Positions 31,444 through 46,231 of a stretch of DNA of 64,000 nt are shown here, in pieces (the first letter of the stretch is position 1; each line of letters opens with the position of its first letter). Source of the DNA: Beijerinckiaceae bacterium (GTDB taxonomy: Bacteria > Pseudomonadota > Alphaproteobacteria > Rhizobiales > Beijerinckiaceae); NCBI GenBank assembly GCA_024304885.1, contig JALJOM010000004.1, positions 1 through 64,000 on the forward strand, in the 5' to 3' direction. The notes beneath the pieces are model-generated. The model was not told where the DNA came from and made no database searches. It worked only from the letters and a program-made list of their open reading frames with translations. The position numbers and the translations under genes were made by a program.

Positions 31444-31878
31444 ATGAACGCCGTACTGGATCAGGTTCGCGCCACGATCGCCGAGCTCGAGGTCCTCGCC
31501 CTCGAGAGTTCGAGAAGGGCGTCAAGCCTCGTATCTCGACCAAAGCCTTCCGCTCGACCGAAACCGTCACCTGCTCCGAGAATTGCGCGTACGGTCGAAG
31601 ATGCGAATAATCGACTGCTCGAGGTCGACACAAGCAACGGCAATCGCGACCGTCTGGTCACCCGCTGTCAAAAAAAAGCGCTGGCTGCTTCGTACAGCAG
31701 CATTCACATCGGGCGGTGGCCTAAACCGCTTGGATTTCCGTTATTTCAGCATCTCTGCATCGACTCGTGGCCCTGTCACTTCGCTGCGACGCCGATCGAG
31801 GTCTGGTCCTTCGGATCGTCGCTTTGTCCGGGTATCTCGCGCGTGACCGGAAGCCGCCATCCTTTGACGAGCACATAG
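31444..31878 (+). CDS. Doubtful small ORF overlapping the 3' end of cusA
   Basis: The first ~55 residues (MNAVLDQVRATIAELEVLAL and a Pro/Lys-rich stretch) have a coding-like composition, but the rest is low in signal and the last 100 bp overlap cusA antisense. It may be the N-terminal remnant of a gene. Apart from this, 31374-31775 holds nothing I recognise. Confidence 0.2.
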   Translation: MNAVLDQVRATIAELEVLALESSRRASSLVSRPKPSARPKPSPAPRIARTVEDANNRLLEVDTSNGNRDRLVTRCQKKALAASYSSIHIGRWPKPLGFPLFQHLCIDSWPCHFAATPIEVWSFGSSLCPGISRVTGSRHPLTST

Positions 31879-34800
31879 ATCGCAGGGATGATAACAAGGG
31901 TCAGGACGGTCGACGAAACCATGCCGCCGATCATGGGAACGGCTATCCGCTGCATCACCTCCGAGCCCGCGCCCGTGTTCCAGAGGATCGGCATGAGGCC
32001 CGCTGTGATTGCTACCACCGTCATCATCTTGGGGCGCACCCGTTCGACCGCGCCCTGCATGATCGCCGCTTCGAGATCTCCATGCGTGAAAGGGTGCCCC
32101 CGTCCGCGGCGATCCGCCTCGATCTCCTTCATCGCCTGATCGAGGTAGATGAGCATCACGACGCCGGTCTCGGCGGCGACACCCGCAAGCGCGATGAATC
32201 CGACCGCTACCGCGACCGACATGTCGAAGCCCTGCCACCACATGAGCCACACCCCCCCGACCATGGCGAAAGGGAGCGAGAGCATCACGATGAGCGTCTC
32301 TGTGAGCGTCTTGAAGTTGAGATAGAGCAAGAGGAAGATGACAAGAAGCGTCACAGGCAGGACGATTTTCAATCGCGCCTCGGCGCGCTCCAAATATTCG
32401 AATTGCCCGCTCCAAGCGATAAAATAGCCGGGCGGCAGCTCGACCGCCTTCATGACCGACTCCCGCGCAGCGACGACATAGCCGCCGAGGTCGCGGCCTG
32501 CGATGTCGACAAAAACATAGACCACGAGCTGGCCGTTCTCGGTGCGGATCGAGGTTGCGCCACGGGTGATCTCGACGCGTGCCACCTCGCCGAGTGGTAC
32601 GGTTCCCCCTGCCGGCATCGGTACCTCGACCTCGCTCGCGATCGCCCGAGGATTGCTGCGCAGCTCACGCGGGTAGCGGATATTGACCGTATATCTTTCC
32701 CGGCCTTCGACGGTCGTGGTGACCGCCTCACCGCCGAGAGCGGTTGCGATCACGTCCTGAACATCGCCCACGGCGAGCTCGTAGCGGCCCAAGGCTTCCC
32801 GGTCGGGCACGATATCGAGGAAATAGCCGCCGATGACTCGCTCCGCATAGGCGCTCGCCGTTCCCGGCACCGACTTCAGCACCGTCTCGACCTCACGCGC
32901 GATCTTCTCCATCCTGGCGAGGTCCGTGCCGAATATCTTGACGCCGACCGGCGTGCGGATGCCGGTCGCGAGCATGTCGATGCGAGCCTTGATCGGCATC
33001 GTCCATGCGTTCGATACGCCCGGGAATTGCAGGGCCCTGTCCATCTCGTTCTTCAGGCTCTCGATCGTGACGCCAGGGCGCCATTGATCGCGAGGTTTCA
33101 GGTTGACGATCGTCTCGGACATTTCGAGAGGGGCCGGGTCGGTTGCCGTCAACGCGCGCCCCGCCTTGCCATAGACCGACGCGACCTCCGGGAAGGATTT
33201 GATGATGCGATCCTGCATCTGGAGGAGCTCGGCGGCCTTGGTGACCGAAAGCCCGGGCAAGGTTGTCGGCATATACATGAGCGCGCCCTCGTCGAGGTTC
33301 GGCATGAACTCGGATCCGAGCTGGCGGGCGGGCCAGACGCTCACGCCGAGAATGGCGAGCGCGACGACGATGGTTGCGACCTTGGCGCGGAGCACCCCCC
33401 GGATGATCGGCCGATAGATTGCGATCAGGAGGCGATTGATCGGGTTCTTGTGCTCCGGAACGATTTTTCCACGCACGAAGACAACCATCAGCGCCGGGAC
33501 CAGCGTGACGGAGAGCAGCGCCGCCGCCGCCATGGCGAAGGTCTTCGTGAAGGCGAGCGGGCCGAAGAGCCGCCCTTCCTGCCCCTCGAGCGAGAAGATC
33601 GGCAGGAACGATACGGTGATGACGAGAAGGCTGAAGAACAGGGCCGGACCGACCTCCGCCGCGGCCTCGACCAGGATTTCGATGCGCGGCTTCCCCTTCG
33701 GCGCGCGCTCGAGATGCTTGTGGGCATTCTCGATCATGACTATGGCGGCATCGATCATGGCGCCGACCGCGATGGCGACACCGCCGAGGCTCATGATGTT
33801 GGCGCCGAGGCCGATCGAGCGCATCATGGCGAACGCCATCAGGATTCCGACGGGCAGCATGAGGATGGCGACCAGGGCGCTGCGCAGATGGAGCAGGAAG
33901 ACGACGCAAACCAGCGCGACGACGAGGCTCTCCTCGACGAGCGTGCCGCGCAATGTTTCGATCGCGGCTTCGATCAGCTGCGAGCGGTCGTAGACAGGGA
34001 TGATCTCGGCACCTTTCGGCAAGCTCGGGGCAATCGCGGCGAGCCGCGTCTTGACGTTATCGATGACGGTCAGCGCATTGGCCCCGAACCTCTGCAAGGC
34101 GATGCCGCTCGCGACTTCGCCTTCGCCATCGAGTTCCGTGATACCGCGCCGCTCGTCGGGGCCGATCTCGACGCGCGCCACATCGCGCAGACGCAGCGGA
34201 ACGCCGGCGTCGGTCCTCAAGACGATGGTCTCGATGTCGTCGAGGCTCTTCAGGTAGCCGCGGCCGCGGACCATGAACTCGAATTCGGAGAGTTCGACCG
34301 TGCGGCCGCCGACATCCATATTGGCGGCGCGCACTGCTTCCCGCAGCCGTGACAGCGCAATTCCTTGCGCTCGGAGCCGGCGCGGATCGACCACGATGTT
34401 GTATTGCTTGACAAAGCCGCCGACGCTCGCGACCTCCGCAACGCCCTCGGCCTTGGCAACAGCGTAGCGCACGATCCAGTCTTGCAGCGAGCGTAGCTCG
34501 GCGAGAGTCATGTCCTTCGCCACCACGGCATATTGATAGACCCATCCGACCCCCGTGGCGTCGGGGCCGAGGCTCGGCGTAATGCCCGGCGGCAGGCGCC
34601 GCGCCGCCGCATTGAGATATTCGAGGACGCGGCTGCGCGCCCAGTAGGGATCCGTGCCGTCCTCGAAAATGACGTAGACGAAGGAAACACCGAAGAACGA
34701 GAAGCCGCGCACCACCTTCGAGCGTGGCACGGTGAGCATGGCGGTGGTCAGTGGAAAGGTGACCTGGTCCTCGACCACCTGCGGTGCCTGGCCCGAATAA

Positions 34801-34951
34801 TCGGTAGTCACGATGACCTGGACATCCGAGAGATCGGGGATCGCGTCGAGCGGGAGGCCGCGCAACGCGTAGCATCCTGCGGCTATAGCGAAGGCCGTTC
34901 CGACGAAGACCAGGACGAGGTTGCGCGCGGACCAGGCGATGAGCCTCGCGA

Positions 34952-34955
<4 letters not shown>
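31776..34955 (-). CDS. cusA: Cu(I)/Ag(I) efflux RND transporter, CusA type (HME4)
   Basis: 1059 residues from ATG 34955, which overlaps the cusB stop by ATGA. Full-length heavy-metal-efflux RND protein: first helix MIARLIAWSARNLVLVFVG, periplasmic opening LPLDAIPDLSDVQVIVTTDY, and the TM4 motif GAMIDAAIVMIENAHK that marks the monovalent-cation (HME4) subgroup, carrying the proton-relay Asp and Glu. The second half begins after MPNLDEGALMYMPTTLPG, the typical periplasmic entry. It exports Cu(I)/Ag(I) from the periplasm and cytoplasm by proton antiport, with CusB and an outer-membrane factor. No cusC gene is adjacent. Confidence 0.94.
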
Positions 34956-38884
<3,929 letters not shown>

Positions 38885-38888
<4 letters not shown>

Positions 38889-39169
38889 TGCCGGAGCCAG
38901 AAAACCACGAACGTCTCGACGAGGCTGTCAGGATACGGCGCGAACGGCGCGCGCGCTGGCAACGAGAGGGCGAGCGGTCGCTCGGCCAGAACCTCGCCAT
39001 GATCGGGGTGCTCGGCTGGACCATCGTGACGCCGACGCTCGCCGGGATATTCGCCGGGCGCTGGCTCGACCGGCAGTTCGGTTCCGGCGTCTTCTGGACG
39101 CTCGGCCTGCTCGTCCTCGGCCTGGCTCTCGGATGCTCGCTTGCTTGGAAGAGGATGTCTCACGAATGA
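38885..39169 (+). CDS. atpQ: N-ATPase accessory membrane protein AtpQ (AtpI-like)
   Basis: 94 residues, start codon overlapping the atpC stop. A charged N-terminal helix (RIRRERRARWQREGERSLG) is followed by two hydrophobic hairpin helices (MIGVLGWTIVTPTLAGIFAG and VFWTLGLLVLGLALGCSLAW), the AtpI/AtpQ layout. In N-ATPase operons this protein is thought to help c-ring assembly or ion handling; exact role is not settled. Confidence 0.85.
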
Positions 39170-39453
39170 TCCACGAAACATTCGGTTCGATTGCTTTACT
39201 CGCAATGCTGTTGGCACTTGTTGGGTTTGTCTTGGGACTCGCCTATTTCGCAGCATTGCACCGAACTGCGGTCCTCTTTGCAACTGGAGGCGGTTGGCTC
39301 GGTCTTTCGGCGCTCACGATAGGCCGTATCGCGGCGGCGACGATTCTGTTGACGCTCGCCGCGATGCTCGGCGCCGCGCCGCTGATCGCTACCTTCCTGG
39401 GTTTCCTCCTAGCGCGTGCCGTCGCGCTACGCAGAGTCGGGTGGGACGACTGA
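39166..39453 (+). CDS. atpR: N-ATPase accessory membrane protein AtpR
   Basis: 95 residues, ATGA overlap with atpQ, three hydrophobic helices (IALLAMLLALVGFVLGLAYF is the first). Its size, position after atpQ and composition fit AtpR, a protein specific to N-ATPase operons with a proposed role in c-ring assembly. Its stop shares one base with the next start (TGATG). Confidence 0.85.
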   Translation: MIHETFGSIALLAMLLALVGFVLGLAYFAALHRTAVLFATGGGWLGLSALTIGRIAAATILLTLAAMLGAAPLIATFLGFLLARAVALRRVGWDD

Positions 39454-41282
39454 TGCTTGGATGGCCGTCCACCAGAGCAGTTCCGTGGGTTCCGACCGTC
39501 GTGCCCTGCGGGACAACCGCGGTGCCCCTACGGCTAGTCGAGATCGTCTCCGAGCTCGTCGGAACCTTCTCGTTCTCGGCACGCATCTTCGGCCGGCGAT
39601 GCGTCATTGCTTTCACCAGAGCCCTCGCCGGCCTCCTTTGTATTTTACTCGCAGCACACGCCTTTGCCGCGGGCGACCGCACGACGGGGTGTCGAGGAGC
39701 CGATCCAGACGAGCGAATTGCCGCCTGCACGGAGATCATCACCACGGCGGGTAGGAAAGCGAAGCGGAACCGGATCACGGCCTACATCAATCGAGGTGCC
39801 GCCTATCGCATCAAGGGCGACCTCGATCGCGCGATCGCCGATCTCGACAAGGCGCTGCAACTCGATCCGAGGTCGGCCATCGGTCTCGCCGAGCGCGCGT
39901 CGATCTATCGTGCAAAGGGCGAGCTCGAACACGCCATTTCCGACTATGGCAGGGCCATCGAGGCTCAGCCGCAATCCGCTGCGGCTTTCTACGGCAGGGG
40001 CGAGGCGTATCGAGCAAACGACGATCTCGACCGCGCCATTGCAGATTACGACAAGGCTCTTCAGCTCGACGAGGGCCTGGCAGGCGCCTATGGCAGCCGG
40101 GCGCGCGCTTTTCTTGGCAAGGGAGAGCTCGACAAGGCGTTGGCCGACTTTACAGAGGCCCTGAAGCTCGATCCGAGATCGTATTCGCTGCACATCGATC
40201 GGGGCGACATTCACTCGAGCAAGGGCGATCTCGATCAGGCGATCGCCGACTACGACGAGGCAATCGAATACGATCCCGGGTCGGCCAGCGCCTACAACAA
40301 GCGCGGTCTCGCCTATTCCGCCAAGGGCGAGTTCGACAATGCCATTATCGATTTCAGCAAGGCCATCGAGCTCGATCCCACAATTGCGGAAGCGTTCCTC
40401 GACCGGGCCAATGCCTATCGCAGCAACGGGGACCCAGCGCAGGCTCGGCGCGACCTCGAAGCCGCGTTGAAACTCGACCCTGAGCTCGCCTCGGCCAAGG
40501 AAGCGCTCGACGAGGTGAACAAGCTCATCGCCAAGAGCGCCGCATCTCCGACGGCTGCGGCTCCGGTGGCCCCAGTCGCACCTCCAGCGCAAGCGCCCGC
40601 CCCTCGCTCGCCGCGGCCTTCGCCCCTCAAGAGCACTGTTCTGTTCCACTCGGGGCCGGTTCCGATCACCGAACCTGTCGCGATAACCTGGGCCATCATG
40701 CTCCTCGTGAGCGTCGCGTCCTTTCTCTTCACGCGCCGGCTCCAACTGGACCCGAACCGGCGCCAAGCCGTGCTCGAGCTCGTCGTGACCGGCATTCTCG
40801 AGCAGATCGAGGATGTCGTCCGCAGAGACGGGCGGCCCTTCCTTCCTCTGCTCGGGACGCTGTTCATTTTTCTCGTCGTGGCCAATCTCTCCGGCCTGCT
40901 GCCGGGTGGCGAGGCGCCGACGAGCAAGCTCGAGACGCCGGCAGCCTTGGCGCTCATCGTGTTTTTCTCGGTGCATTTTTTCGGCGTGCGGGCACGGGGC
41001 GTCGCTGGCTACCTCGCGAGCTTCGCCGAACCGAAGCTCATCATGCTGCCGCTCAATATCGTCTCCGAGGTGACGCGGACCTTCTCGCTCATGGTTCGCC
41101 TCTTCGGCAACGTCATGAGCGGAGAGTTCGTCATCGCTCTCGTGGTGGGACTAGCTGGGCTCTTCGTGCCGATCCCGCTCATGGCTCTCGAGGTCCTGGT
41201 CGGCATCGTCCAGGCCTATATCTTCACCGTGCTCGCAACCGTCTTCATCGGCGCCGCGATCGGCAGAGTCGAGAAGGGATAG
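39453..41282 (+). CDS. atpB: TPR-repeat protein fused to N-ATPase subunit a
   Basis: 609 residues with no stop or frameshift. Residues ~48-75 look like a signal peptide or helix ([20 protein letters not shown], then [12 protein letters not shown]). Residues ~80-365 hold about eight TPR units with consensus [18 protein letters not shown]. An Ala/Pro linker (~365-395) leads into the normal start of subunit a, [16 protein letters not shown], and five to six membrane helices with the essential Arg in SLMVRLFGN. No ATG or GTG lies between the TPR part and the first helix, so subunit a cannot start separately by a standard codon. Subunit a's N-terminus normally faces the periplasm, so a periplasmic TPR arm is topologically possible. 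The N-terminal ~45 residues also contain a segment resembling subunit a itself ([17 protein letters not shown]). Confidence 0.85.
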
Positions 41283-41292
41283 AGGAGGTTTC

Positions 41293-41535
41293 ATGGATCC
41301 GGAGCTCGTCAGCATCATCGGCGCAGTGGTCGCCGTCTCGATCGCCTCGATCGGTCCGGCACTGGCCGAGGGCCGCTCGGTCGCCGCCGCGATGGATGCG
41401 ATTGCCCGTCAGCCGGAGGCGGCCGGTCCGATCTCGCGCACGCTGTTCGTCGGCCTCGCGATGATCGAGACCATGGCGATCTACGGCCTCGTGGTGGCTC
41501 TCCTGCTGCTCTTCGCTAATCCCTACACGGGCTGA
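41293..41535 (+). CDS. atpE: N-type F-ATPase subunit c
   Basis: 80 residues, two membrane helices joined by the RQPEAA loop. Ion ligands fit a Na+ site: Glu26 in PALAEGR, and Glu59, Thr60 and Tyr64 in MIETMAIY, matching the double-Glu N-ATPase pattern (compare Ilyobacter Gln32, Glu65, Ser66, Tyr70). AGGAGG lies just upstream. The ring carries ions across the inner membrane. Confidence 0.95.
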
Positions 41536-41537
41536 TC

Positions 41538-42278
41538 ATGCGCTTCGACTGGTGGACCTTGGCGCTGCAGACGATCAATTTCACGGTCCTCGTCTGGCTG
41601 CTGCACCGCTTTCTCTACAAGCCGGTGCTTCGCATGATCGACACGCGACGTGCCGAGATCGAAAAGCAATATGCCGATGCCCGCGCGGCGGAAGCCGCGG
41701 CGAGGGACCAGCTCGCGGCGATCGAGGCTCAGCGCGCCGGTATCGCCGCCGAGCACGAGGCCGCACTCGCGACCGCCATGGTCCACGCGGAAGAGGCGGC
41801 CAAGGCGCGGCGCGTTCAGGCGGAAAGCGAGGCTGCCGCACTCCTCGACGAGGCCCGCAAGACGCTTGCGGTCGAGCGCAGCCAGGCACTCACCACGGTA
41901 CGGAAATCGGCGCTCGACCTCGGAACCGAGGTCGCCCGCCGGTTGCTTGGCGAGGTGCCCATGAAGCTACGCGCGGAAGCTTGGCTCGAGCAGGTCGAAC
42001 ACCATCTCCAGTCCCTGCCGAAATCGGAGCTCGATGCACTCGGCCGGCAGATCCAGAACGGCGCTGTCGTTACCGTCGTAACGGCCGCATCACTCAAACC
42101 GGAAGCAGCCGACATCTGGCGTGCCAGTCTGCGCCAATCGCTCAGTCAGGGGGTCGACATTGCTTTCGACGTGGATCCAGCCCTCATCGCGGGCGTGGAG
42201 CTCCATCTCCCGAGCGCCGTCTTGCGGTTTTCCTGGCAGAGCGCGCTTGCCGAGGTGCGTTCGGAGATCGAGGCCTGA
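41538..42278 (+). CDS. atpF: N-type F-ATPase subunit b with delta-like C-terminal part
   Basis: 246 residues. One N-terminal membrane helix (LQTINFTVLVWLLHRFLY), a long charged coiled coil to about residue 140, then ~100 residues that take the place of subunit delta, for which no separate gene exists in this operon. This long form is standard for N-ATPases. It is the peripheral stalk linking subunit a to F1. The stop overlaps atpA by one base. Confidence 0.92.
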   Translation: MRFDWWTLALQTINFTVLVWLLHRFLYKPVLRMIDTRRAEIEKQYADARAAEAAARDQLAAIEAQRAGIAAEHEAALATAMVHAEEAAKARRVQAESEAAALLDEARKTLAVERSQALTTVRKSALDLGTEVARRLLGEVPMKLRAEAWLEQVEHHLQSLPKSELDALGRQIQNGAVVTVVTAASLKPEAADIWRASLRQSLSQGVDIAFDVDPALIAGVELHLPSAVLRFSWQSALAEVRSEIEA

Positions 42279-43822
42279 TGGCGACGCTCAGCGAGGATCT
42301 GCAAGAGTGGGTTGACCGAAGCCGCGGCCGCATCGGCACGCTGGCACTCGAGCCTCGCCTCGAGCAGATCGGGAAGGTCATCCAGGTCGGGGACGGGGTG
42401 GCAGCTGTCGCGGGCCTCCCGGAGACGCGGCTCGACGAGCTGCTCGTGTTCGAAGGCGGCCTGCGCGGCCTCGCGGTCGATCTCGGCGAGGAAACGATCG
42501 GATGCGTGCTGCTCGGCGACACGAGCGCGATCCTGGCCGGAAGCACGGTACGCGGCACGGGCGAGGTCGCGCGCGTTCCGGTCGGCGATGCCCTGCTCGG
42601 CCGTGTCGTCGACGCGCTCGGAGTTCCCCTCGATGGCGGAGACCCGATCACGTCCGAGACGCTCTTACCGGCAGAGCAGCCCGCGCCCGCCATTGTCGAT
42701 CGTGCTCTGGTGAAGCAGCCTCTGTCTACCGGGCTCCTGGCGGTAGATGCGATGATTCCCCTTGGCCGCGGACAGCGCGAGCTGATTATCGGTGATCGTG
42801 GGACGGGAAAAACCGCAATCGCGGTAGATACCATCATCAACCAGCGTGCGAGCGACGTTGTGTGCGTCTACGCGGCAATCGGCCAAAAGGCGTCGTCGAT
42901 CGCGCAGGTCATCGAAGCTATACGCCGCTATGGTGCGCCGGAACGCTGCCTGTTCGTGATCGGGGAAGCCGATGCCGCGCCGGGCCTTCAGTGGCTGACG
43001 CCCTATGCCGCCTGTACCATGGGCGAATATTTCATGTCGCGCGGACGTGATGTCCTGCTCGTCATCGACGATCTCACCAAGCACGCCGCCGTGTATCGCC
43101 AAATGTCGCTGCTGCTGCGCCGGCCGCCGGGCCGAGAGGCCTATCCGGGTGACATTTTCTATATCCATTCGCGCTTGCTCGAACGGGCGGCGAAGCTTGC
43201 GCCCGAGCGCGGCGGCGGCTCGCTCACGGCACTCCCGATCGCCGAGACCCAGGCCGGCAATATCAGCGCCTATATTCCGACCAACCTCATCTCGATCACC
43301 GACGGCCAAATTTATCTCGATCCGCGCCTCTTCTATGAAGATCAGAAACCCGCGGTCGATGTGGGAAAGAGCGTGTCGCGCGTCGGGGGGAAGACCCAGG
43401 CTCCAGTTCTCAAAGCTCTCTCCGAGAGCCTGCGGCTCGATTATGCCCAGTTTCTCGAGCTCGAGGTCTTCACCCGCTTCGGCACAATGGTGGACGAGCG
43501 CACGCGCAAGGTGATCGAGCACGGAAGGCGCATTCGCGCGGTGCTCGCACAAAAGCAGTTCGCACCGCTGTCGCTCGGCGAAGAGGTGGCGCTCCTGCTG
43601 GCGCTGAGCGAAGGCATCCTAGACGATTTGCCGATTGATCGAGTTGGCGCATTTCGGGAGCGACTCGGGCCGTGGCTGATCGAGCATTGCCCGGAGGCAG
43701 CGGCGCTCGGCGACCAGGCAGAGCAGCTGTCGGATGATTTGCGTGCGCGCCTCGGGACATCGCTCGACGCCCTCGCCCGCACGCTCGATTCGAGCGGCGG
43801 ATCGAAGGGCACTCCGCCATGA
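42278..43822 (+). CDS. atpA: N-type F-ATPase subunit alpha
   Basis: 514 residues from ATG 42278 (MATLSEDLQEWVDRSRG), at a TGATG junction with atpF. P-loop GDRGTGKTAIAVDTI, the arginine finger in VSRVGGKTQ and the VIQVGDGVAAVAGL beta-barrel opening are intact. It alternates with beta in the F1 head and holds the non-catalytic nucleotide sites. Confidence 0.95.
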   Translation: MATLSEDLQEWVDRSRGRIGTLALEPRLEQIGKVIQVGDGVAAVAGLPETRLDELLVFEGGLRGLAVDLGEETIGCVLLGDTSAILAGSTVRGTGEVARVPVGDALLGRVVDALGVPLDGGDPITSETLLPAEQPAPAIVDRALVKQPLSTGLLAVDAMIPLGRGQRELIIGDRGTGKTAIAVDTIINQRASDVVCVYAAIGQKASSIAQVIEAIRRYGAPERCLFVIGEADAAPGLQWLTPYAACTMGEYFMSRGRDVLLVIDDLTKHAAVYRQMSLLLRRPPGREAYPGDIFYIHSRLLERAAKLAPERGGGSLTALPIAETQAGNISAYIPTNLISITDGQIYLDPRLFYEDQKPAVDVGKSVSRVGGKTQAPVLKALSESLRLDYAQFLELEVFTRFGTMVDERTRKVIEHGRRIRAVLAQKQFAPLSLGEEVALLLALSEGILDDLPIDRVGAFRERLGPWLIEHCPEAAALGDQAEQLSDDLRARLGTSLDALARTLDSSGGSKGTPP

Positions 43823-44667
43823 CGCGTCTCGCCGAGATCCAGGCCCGTATCGGCAGCATGGGCGAGCTGCGTGATATCGTCGGGGCAATGCGCTCGCTCG
43901 CTGGTATGCGCGTGCAGGAGACGCAGCAGGCGCTCCCCAGCATTCGCCGCTATGCCGAGGCCGTGGCGACCGCGCTCGCCAGCACTTTCGCCCTCATGCC
44001 GGAACCGGCGCCCGAGAGGCACGCCGATCAGGAACGCCGAGCCTTCATCTTATGTGCCGCAGAGCACGGCTTCGTCGGTGGTTTCAACGAGCGCCTCGTC
44101 GATGCCGCGGAAGCCGCGCTCGAGCCAGACGATTCGCTCTTCGTGCTGGGAAGCCGGGGCGCGGCTCTCGCTCTCGAGCGGAGGCGGCGGATCATCTGGT
44201 CGAGACCGATGGCGACTCGCTTGGGGGGTGTCCCCGAGACCATCCGTCAACTTTCTGCTGCGCTCTACGCTCGCATCGCGAGCGGCGAGATCGGCCGCGT
44301 CGAGGTCATATTTGCTCGGTACCGTCAGGGCAGCACGCCCGCGACCGAGCGGCACCTGCTCCTGCCGCTCGATCTCACGTCGCTCGCGGCCAAGCGGCCC
44401 CGGCAGCCGCCGCTTCACAATTTGAAGCCTATCGTCCTCCACGAGAAGCTCATGGTGGAATATGTCTTCGCGCTTTTGACGGAGGCTGCCGTCGAGTCGA
44501 TCGCCAGCGAGAATGCGGCACGCTTCGCTGCGATGGAAGCGGCGCACGATAACGTCTCGAAAAAGCTCGAGGAGCTGCGCCAGGCGGAGCGCGAGGCCCG
44601 GCAATCCGAGATCACGACGGAACTGCTCGATCTCATAATAGGCGCCGAGGCGCTCAACTGCCGATGA
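43819..44667 (+). CDS. atpG: N-type F-ATPase subunit gamma
   Basis: 282 residues, ATGA overlap with atpA. Helical start MTRLAEIQARIGSMGELRDI, central Rossmann-like part (AFILCAAEHGFVGGFNERLV), and the closing helix with NVSKKLEELRQAEREARQSE that forms the rotor coiled coil. Last gene of the operon. Its shorter, diverged form is usual for N-ATPases. Confidence 0.92.
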   Translation: MTRLAEIQARIGSMGELRDIVGAMRSLAGMRVQETQQALPSIRRYAEAVATALASTFALMPEPAPERHADQERRAFILCAAEHGFVGGFNERLVDAAEAALEPDDSLFVLGSRGAALALERRRRIIWSRPMATRLGGVPETIRQLSAALYARIASGEIGRVEVIFARYRQGSTPATERHLLLPLDLTSLAAKRPRQPPLHNLKPIVLHEKLMVEYVFALLTEAAVESIASENAARFAAMEAAHDNVSKKLEELRQAEREARQSEITTELLDLIIGAEALNCR

Positions 44668-45018: not shown

Positions 45019-45381
45019 TGCGAGCGGTCCGAGCGCTCGTTCGGGACCTTGCAGGACCGCTTGGTGAAGGAGCTGCGGCTCGCAGGCATTGCCACGCTCG
45101 ACGCGGCGAATGCGTTCTTGCCGGGCTTTCTCGAGGCGCACAACGCGCGGTTCGGCGAGCCGCCTTTCGATGCCACCGATGCCCACCGTCCGATGCACGA
45201 AAAAGTGGAGCTCGAAGACGTTTTCGCCTGGAAGGAGGAGCGCACGGTCTCGAACAACCCGACGCTACAATACGACAAAAACCTCTTCATCCTGGAGCCG
45301 AACGAGGTAACGCGATCGCTCGCCCGCAAGCGCGTGACCGTCCTCGATTATCCCGACGGTCGCTTGGCGATTCGTATGTAG
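45019..45381 (+). pseudogene. Transposase C-terminal scrap (ISNCY-like family)
   Basis: In one frame from 45019: SERSFGTLQDRLVKELRLAG, EAHNARFGEPPFDATDAHRP, FAWKEERTVSNNPTLQYDKN, and RKRVTVLDYPDGRLAI before the stop. This reads as the end of an ISNCY/IS1202-type DDE transposase, recalled from similar proteins. The catalytic N-terminal part and the ends of the element are absent. Confidence 0.7.
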
Positions 45382-45593: not shown

Positions 45594-45827
45594 ATGGCAG
45601 CGACCGTCACGAGCAAGGGCCAGGTCACGATTCCAAAACCCGTCCGGGATCTTCTCGGCATCGAACCGGGAAGCAAGGTCGAATTCGAGCGGGCGCCGGA
45701 TGGGCGAATCGTCCTCGTCAAGGTCGATGGGGATCGGCGACCCAGTCGTTTCGCGCGTCTGCGCGGCCACGCCGGCAAGGGCCTTTCGACCGACGCTATC
45801 ATGGCCTTGACGCGCGGCGATTCCTGA
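45594..45827 (+). CDS. AbrB/MazE-family antitoxin (VapB-like)
   Basis: 77 residues: swapped-hairpin AbrB DNA-binding fold (TVTSKGQVTIPKPVRDLLGI, EPGSKVEFERAPDGRIVL) and a C-terminal toxin-binding tail. AGGACC lies upstream. The stop and the next start overlap (TGATG), the usual antitoxin-first layout. It should neutralise the PIN toxin and autorepress the pair through a site in the 210 bp upstream. Confidence 0.9.
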   Translation: MAATVTSKGQVTIPKPVRDLLGIEPGSKVEFERAPDGRIVLVKVDGDRRPSRFARLRGHAGKGLSTDAIMALTRGDS

Positions 45828-46231
45828 TGACGCTCGTCGACACGAACGTTCTCCTCGACCTCGTGACCGACGACCCAGATTGGGCGGAATGGTCGCTCGC
45901 GACAATGGAAGTCGCGGCGCTCGACGGTCCGCTCTGCATCAACGATATCGTTTACGCCGAGTTGTCGGTCCGCTACGAGCGGATCGAGGATCTTGAGACA
46001 CTGCTGGAAGATTCGGCGATCGAGATCGAGCCGCCGCCGCGCGCGGCGCTCTTCCTCGCCGGCAAGGTCTTCGCCCAATATCGTAGGTCCGGCGGAACCC
46101 GTACGGGCGTGCTCCCCGACTTTTTTATTGGAGCCCACGCGGCCGTCAGTGGCATTCCGTTGCTGACACGTGACGCCCGAAGATATCGGAATTATTTTCC
46201 GACCTTGCATCTCATCGCGCCGAAGAAATGA
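45827..46231 (+). CDS. PIN-domain toxin (VapC-like)
   Basis: 134 residues. Acidic site: Asp in LVDTNVLLDL near the N-terminus, Glu in NDIVYAELSVRY, Asp in GVLPDFFIGAHA and the closing LLTRDARRYRNYFP. PIN toxins are Mg-dependent RNases that cut tRNA or rRNA. Intact and coupled to its antitoxin, in a region otherwise full of gene fragments. Confidence 0.9.
   Translation: MTLVDTNVLLDLVTDDPDWAEWSLATMEVAALDGPLCINDIVYAELSVRYERIEDLETLLEDSAIEIEPPPRAALFLAGKVFAQYRRSGGTRTGVLPDFFIGAHAAVSGIPLLTRDARRYRNYFPTLHLIAPKK

Follow-up and report, generated by a model that had tools for sequence, protein, structure and literature searches.

N-type (N1No) ATPases, as described for Burkholderia pseudomallei (PMC5376962) and ProAD (PMC11738941), are encoded by an operon that lies beside a canonical F-ATPase in the same genome; according to the available parts of these papers, the operon carries atpQ and atpR, encodes b and delta in one gene and specifies a subunit a with an essential Arg, in the gene order beta-epsilon-X-X-a-c-(b delta)-alpha-gamma (PMC11738941). 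The operon studied here lies in a 64,000-nt stretch of a Beijerinckiaceae genome (hereafter the window). It follows the same order: all nine genes of the series atpD-C-Q-R-B-E-F-A-G, which had been proposed from a sequence-only reading, were recognised, including AtpR (PF12966) and AtpQ (PF09527) (Table 1). A canonical F-ATPase is also present, represented by a second ATP-synt_A protein on another contig (G000:C3:602111-602743). The difference is in subunit a, which has ∼390 extra N-terminal residues, whereas the only fusion named in the available parts of the two papers is that of b and delta. Unfused subunits a that were read upstream start just behind AtpR; in the window a tetratricopeptide repeat (TPR) module lies between the two, in the same frame as subunit a. 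To our knowledge, the position of subunit a directly behind AtpR is no published N-type criterion. We kept the operon among the N-type ATPases because this position is a regularity seen in our analysis only.

The frame at 39453-41282 is uninterrupted from the ATG at 39453 to the stop codon at 41280-41282 and encodes 609 aa; its start overlaps the atpR stop in TGATG. Pfam found two domains in this one protein, TPR_1 (1.1e-56; 186.9 bits in six stretches, against a gathering score of 27.8) and ATP-synt_A (4.8e-47; 161 bits), and the NCBIfam model PRK13421 (subunit A) matched residues 390-607 at 321.6 bits (cut-off 302). We concluded that the fusion of a TPR domain to subunit a, first noticed as a single open frame, is real. 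The signal-like helix, the Ala/Pro linker and the complete subunit a with its essential Arg are all present as first described. The Arg is R549, and it does not vary among the eight fusion rows or among 36 aligned rows of the N type, of which three are fusions. Where about eight TPR units had been counted, there are seven canonical ones plus a cap and a C-terminal helix. In the AlphaFold model the TPR part (pLDDT > 90) shows superhelical antiparallel helix pairs of the TPR type. The subunit-a part modelled alone reached a mean pLDDT of only 72; it resembles the a chains of ATP synthases, with 6vm4_a as best match (E 4.3e-8) and that of E. coli, 6oqr_a, at 3.7e-6.

Residues 29-61 of the window protein resemble the arginine helix of subunit a, with a protein score of 61 that 0 of 2000 shuffles reached and a DNA score of 46 (0 of 2000 codon shuffles). 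Among the fusions this copy occurs in the window only and has no counterpart in the other aligned rows. By our reading of the alignment, the N-terminus of the fusion at locus L040, MRRSSPL, resembles the usual start of subunit a. The two stretches may be scars left by the insertion event from which the fusion arose.

Table 1. Genes and protein parts at the fused operon (window positions), and loci of the other carriers of the TPR module.
Feature	Position or locus	Strand	Basis or remark
CusA-type RND pump (ACR_tran) and CusB/HlyD adaptor	31776..36106	-	near operon
atpD (beta)	37000..38439	+	Pfam/NCBIfam
atpC (epsilon)	38436..38888	+	Pfam/NCBIfam
atpQ (PF09527 ATPase_gene1)	38888..39169	+	Pfam/NCBIfam
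atpR (PF12966)	39166..39453	+	Pfam
TPR-AtpB fusion gene, 609 aa	39453..41282	+	open frame, alignment, Pfam/NCBIfam
Decayed in-frame second copy of subunit a arginine helix (residues 29-61)	39537..39635	+	shuffle test
Signal-peptide-like segment (residues 50-73): hydrophobic core, AHAFA-A cleavage-like site	39600..39671	+	motif and hydropathy reading
Two-cysteine cap (C80, C92)	39672..39773	+	invariant in 19 aligned modules
Seven canonical 34-residue TPRs (residues 108-345)	39774..40487	+	Pfam, model, Foldseek
C-terminal capping helix (residues 346-363), in-frame GTG 40515 inside	40488..40541	+	sequence, model
Ala/Pro linker (residues 364-389), in-frame GTG 40566 inside	40542..40619	+	sequence, alignment, model
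Complete N-type subunit a (residues 390-609); R549 at 41097-41099	40620..41279	+	alignment, NCBIfam, model
atpE (c)	41293..41535	+	Pfam/NCBIfam
atpF (b with delta/OSCP-like C-terminal part)	41538..42278	+	Pfam/NCBIfam
atpA (alpha)	42278..43822	+	Pfam/NCBIfam
atpG (gamma)	43819..44667	+	Pfam/NCBIfam
Cd/Zn-type P1B ATPases	L191 first, L194		
Cu-type P1B ATPase	L195, L196		L196 by likeness
Mg-type P-type ATPases	L191 second, L192		
Ca-type-like P-type ATPase	L190		below NCBIfam model cut-off
Another P-type ATPase	L219		
P-type ATPase cut by contig end	L220		assigned wholly or partly by likeness
TM-cupredoxin protein	L197, L198, L215, L224, L229		L197, L224, L229 scanned; L198, L215 wholly or partly by likeness
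YbaL-type antiporters	L207 first, L218		L207 below NCBIfam cut-off; L218 wholly or partly by likeness
NhaD-like transporter (name given here)	L207 second		directly behind the L207 YbaL-type gene; Pfam CitMHS_2
Molybdo-oxidoreductase with cytochrome b561	L193		

To look for the same TPR-AtpB architecture in related genomes, we used the subunit-a part as query against 397 family, 397 order and 385 class genomes and then read the upstream DNA. Eight fused loci in seven genomes were found: that of the window and those of G031, G248, G316, G321 (two), G356 and G400, these six genomes all belonging to one other genus group, identified as Methylocystis. They represent four sequence types (window; L040/L041; L042/L046; L043/L044/L045), and the subunits a of the other fusions share 74-79% identity with the one in the window. 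In the family search 8 of 49 subunit-a places were fused; upstream reading covered 19 of the other 41, and the remaining 22 have open frames of 228-362 aa. Beyond the family there were 56 subunit-a places, and none of the 18 read upstream was fused. A scan of named genomes gave 3 fused among 63 subunit-a loci, and there the closest unfused relative was L083 (77%). Other candidates were rejected as fusions: genome G055 (L005/L034) has a free secreted TPR protein and no atpB in the 9 kb read; the subunits a of G441 (601 aa) and G437 (561 aa) begin five residues before PL, right after a stop codon; and L093, which matched query residues 300-607, has no TPR upstream of subunit a.

On the complete M. 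rosea plasmid pGW6_1 the fusion is annotated as a single 1,521-nt RefSeq CDS of 506 residues (WP_124740354.1). A ninth copy of the fused operon, at the record start of M. rosea BRCS1 (L144, NZ_CP044329.1), has broken frames in several genes, which are probably sequencing errors and possibly decay. These broken frames at the same locus are the one observation that could speak for a misassembly or chimeric join, and nothing at the window itself favours it. We give that explanation practically no weight: a misassembly or chance join can be set aside because the architecture is shared by other genomes, including another genus and one complete plasmid. In a FastTree phylogeny of seven concatenated operon proteins (trimmed columns, 41 operons), the eight fused operons formed one clade with SH-like support of 1.0; therefore the TPR part was probably joined to subunit a once in the history of the operon and then kept.

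Seven of the eight fused operons have CusA-type RND genes at a distance of no more than about 10 kb (three of the seven are nearly identical); at the eighth, L040, only about 5 kb was read on each side. No CusA-type genes were found in 50 kb around the unfused relative G602 or near six further unfused operons (7-13 kb read). The proximity may merely reflect shared metal islands. Just 3' of the window operon there is a pair of MazE-type antitoxin and PIN-domain genes (45594-46231), and an ORF between them and the operon (45049-45381) looks like a transposase remnant, yet has no Pfam match. A search of the window's own genome for RepA-like (PF10134) and RepC (PF03428) proteins found neither and so gave no sign that the window contig is a plasmid. 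A PmoA/AmoA-family protein encoded in this genome makes a methanotrophic host probable.

All fusions have a signal-peptide-like start, a cap with two invariant Cys, TPRs, a C-terminal helix and a linker, which is Ala/Pro-rich in the window and L043-L045 and short in the others. The number of TPRs is seven in the window and L040/L041, six in L042 and L046, and five in L043-L045. Three pairs at synonymous distances of 0.35-1.08 were usable for dN/dS estimates. The ratio for the TPR part versus AtpB was 0.32 versus 0.05 in L042/L046, 0.24 versus 0.24 in window/L043 and 0.27 versus 0.14 in window/L040; a value of 0.63 for the TPR part in L043/L044 reflects only two amino-acid changes, too little divergence to use. 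By these ratios the TPR arm is under purifying selection, which is laxer than that on AtpB in two of the three pairs. The concave face of a TPR superhelix is the usual peptide-binding side. Between the window and L040, conservation was 0.40 on the concave face, 0.84 at structural positions and 0.54 at all non-structural positions; a conserved peptide groove was looked for in this one pair and none was found, nor any sign of one shared ligand.

Next, we searched with the TPR part alone. This gave long open frames other than those of ATP synthase subunits, which on reading turned out to hold the same module ahead of other proteins. A module profile of the cap and two TPRs was then built from 19 aligned rows. 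Matches at E<=1e-22 were present in 47 of 328 family genomes; in a class sample, 4 of 318 genomes, the window's own included, had matches, and the other three were weak. At E<=1e-30 there were 68 matches in the 328 family genomes, all of which were read, and weaker rows were left out of the count: in 43 cases the module is a secreted protein by itself, and in 25 it stands at the head of another protein. The carriers (Table 1), identified from Pfam/NCBIfam matches or from their similarity to relatives that had been scanned, are AtpB (7), P-type ATPases (9), a TM-cupredoxin protein (5), YbaL-type antiporters (2), an NhaD-like transporter (1) and a molybdo-oxidoreductase/cytochrome b (1); the eighth AtpB fusion (G400) lies outside this sample. 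All 25 are membrane transport or redox proteins. Some are plasmid-borne, and pGW6_1 alone has four of them (AtpB, cupredoxin, Cd/Zn-type and Mg-type). The two cap Cys, 12 residues apart, are invariant in 19 of 19 aligned modules; of 36 modules, 28 have exactly two Cys, seven have three and one (L196) has one. The TPR number varies from 4 to 7 and the linker is mostly Pro/Ala. The window protein, with its signal-peptide-like start, two-Cys cap and TPRs, falls within this definition; its genome has no further module match at E<=1e-22. These results suggest that the TPR part is a portable module of methanotrophic Beijerinckiaceae that is also found on unrelated transporters. The description of a TPR arm on subunit a was borne out as to the fusion and is too narrow as to the module.

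Several observations were made along the way. In the window's genus group, two neighbouring genes for YbaL-type and NhaD-like proteins (L207:3112-7889) carry nearly the same module, which therefore seems to have been recently duplicated; they have no ATG before the signal segment, and TTG or GTG starts are likely. A free module at L199 (G366:C1, about 142 kb), counted among the 43, clusters with the fusions of Cd/Zn-type P-type ATPases, stops short of the linker and is apparently a truncated P-type fusion. Two TPR proteins were placed outside the count, one of G183 (L221; 718 aa, E 2.5e-27) with a caspase-like-looking C-terminus and a TPR-rich one of G306:C41 (565 aa) with no recognised carrier. 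The window contig encodes a protein resembling that of G183, also with a caspase-like-looking C-terminus (L211:520-2871; G000:C4, about 124.5-126.9 kb); its module is different from the AtpB arm.

The way in which the module is joined differs between carriers. In the P-type, cupredoxin and molybdo/cytochrome fusions there is one added hydrophobic helix between linker and carrier, ending near Lys/Arg in the cases read, and in the AtpB, YbaL-type and NhaD-like fusions there is none. The N-terminus of P-type ATPases is cytoplasmic, and those of subunit a and of KefB/YbaL-type antiporters are periplasmic; the expected topology of the NhaD-like, cupredoxin and cytochrome carriers was taken from the charges behind the first TM. 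Since the added TM is found only on carriers whose N-terminus is expected in the cytoplasm, the module should be periplasmic on all carriers. A hydropathy scan found TM1 in six of the eight AtpB fusions. In these six, the 15 residues behind TM1 include 2-6 Lys/Arg, an indication that the N-terminus is periplasmic. In L040/L041 the scan missed TM1, and in L044 the signal segment fell below its threshold. The open frame of the P-type case L196 lacks a signal peptide. A periplasmic arm on subunit a, as originally proposed, is the best reading, with which the signal-like start, the cap Cys, the charges behind TM1 and the joining mode agree. The five cupredoxin fusions are small and consist of the TPR module, a single TM and a cupredoxin-like domain. 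Judged by charge, the last of these would lie in the cytoplasm, an odd place for a copper protein.

To compare modules among carriers, we built a tree of 36 modules (176 columns, L190 left out). A single clade of AtpB modules was rejected by the AU test (p-AU 0.008) and not by the SH test (p-SH 0.077), and a single clade of P-type modules was rejected at p-AU 0.002; a split of carrier-attached modules (with L199) from free ones was compatible with the data (p-AU 0.53). As the operons form one clade, modules were probably swapped among carriers; gain and loss of repeat units could mimic swapping in such a tree. The P-type fusion L190 has a cupredoxin-like stretch behind the added helix, which suggests that it passed through a cupredoxin fusion. 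One may ask whether the module is a passenger, with a signal peptide and a soluble fold that are tolerated, that spreads by recombination among plasmid-borne genes and has no task at its carrier. The discordance between module tree and carriers, the variable TPR number (5, 6 or 7 in AtpB fusions), the plasmid location of some carriers and the poorly conserved concave face in one pair are compatible with it. This reading has to be set against the dN/dS of 0.24-0.32 at the synonymous distances given above, the intact open frame in all eight aligned AtpB fusions, and the restriction of 25 of 25 carriers, found with the module alone as query, to membrane transport or redox with one topology that fits every join; we regard it as improbable.

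The explanation that we favour as a whole, and consider reasonably probable on the sequence comparisons, is that of an exported periplasmic TPR module with a docking or clustering job on its carriers. The signal peptide would route the module through Sec, and the module would fold in the periplasm with a disulfide in the cap. The chain would then re-enter the membrane via TM1 of the carrier in subunit a, YbaL-type and NhaD-like proteins, and via the one added TM in P-type ATPases, cupredoxin and cytochrome b proteins. In the N-ATPase, one TPR superhelix would sit on the stator beside the periplasmic half-channel at the a/c interface; in this position it need not hinder rotation.

Alternatively, the chain might be a pre-protein that is made in one piece and cut at the Pro/Ala linker in the periplasm, or subunit a might also be made from an internal GTG; either way, the TPR protein would be set free and subunit a would have its normal form. 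The sequence-only reading had expected no free subunit a, on the ground that neither ATG nor GTG separates the TPRs from TM1. There are in fact in-frame GTG codons at 40515 and 40566, and these or linker proteolysis would allow a free subunit a in the window. In L042 and L046 the stretch from the last TPR to the SPL motif is free of ATG, GTG and TTG, which counts against this alternative. GTG/TTG codons in L043-L045 and TTG in L040/L041, a linker that is unstructured in the model (pLDDT < 50, residues 365-394), and the free secreted paralogues of many family genomes fit a pre-protein. An added TM behind the module in P-type carriers would be needless for a module that is cut off, and by our reading of the sequence no clear ribosome-binding site precedes GTG 40515 or 40566. 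We consider a pre-protein unlikely.

Another role for the module would be local ion handling: in the periplasm, where each pump has its mouth, it would act as a regulator or as an ion buffer by sensing or binding the departing cation. The pump and antiporter carriers come from cation-moving families, and a Foldseek search with the TPR model returned consensus TPRs first, the best match with zinc. The net charge of the carrier-attached modules ranges from -10 to +6 and gives no consistent picture, there is hardly any Cys besides the cap pair, and carriers of different ions share one module family; we regard ion handling as improbable.

Within the favoured explanation of a periplasmic module, docking or clustering is the most likely job and also the weakest step, one that we put forward tentatively and rate somewhat below an even chance. 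Through the module, different cation pumps driven by ATP or by ions would have a location or a partner in the periplasm in common, and candidate partners would be each other, a free secreted paralogue or the Cus-type efflux system near the operon. Against docking are the poorly conserved concave face in the window/L040 pair and the absence of a second module match from the window genome, which therefore has no second carrier there to cluster with. More speculatively still, the module might be a common socket, one periplasmic TPR prefix that is set on at least six unrelated membrane-protein classes (the YbaL-type antiporters among them being of K+/H+ type) with a TM added where needed, moves between them, partly on plasmids, and gathers the cation pumps in a single periplasmic assembly. 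If true, unrelated transporters could be organised from the periplasm by means of the shared arm. Subunit a is among the most constrained bioenergetic proteins, and an arm of about 340 residues on it, beside the periplasmic half-channel, would be a natural handle on the hard-to-reach side of the motor.

No ATPase with such an arm had been known at first reading, and in the open-access PMC literature we likewise recognised no fusion of TPRs to subunit a or to a transporter among the matches listed. In the parts of the texts available, PMC11738941 has no 'tetratricopeptide' and names b/delta as its only fusion, PMC11237726 has no 'TPR', 'tetratricopeptide' or 'fusion', and PMC5376962 has no 'fusion'. 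The predicted fold itself is that of CTPR proteins and O-GlcNAc transferase TPRs (PDB 8chy, 9qhc, 1w3b; Foldseek E 3e-16 to 2e-13), whose repeats are likewise near consensus; those proteins are designed or eukaryotic and without a transporter. CheR is a cytoplasmic signalling enzyme. In the CheR-TPR fusions, as far as the available part of the report goes (PMC3447774), a TPR domain is likewise joined to another protein, but there is no series of transporters sharing one periplasmic module as found here. The free secreted TPR proteins of Methylocystis and Methylosinus (L034, L201, L202, L226 and others) have the same start, cap, TPRs and C-terminal helix as the fusions and, unlike them, stand without a membrane carrier.
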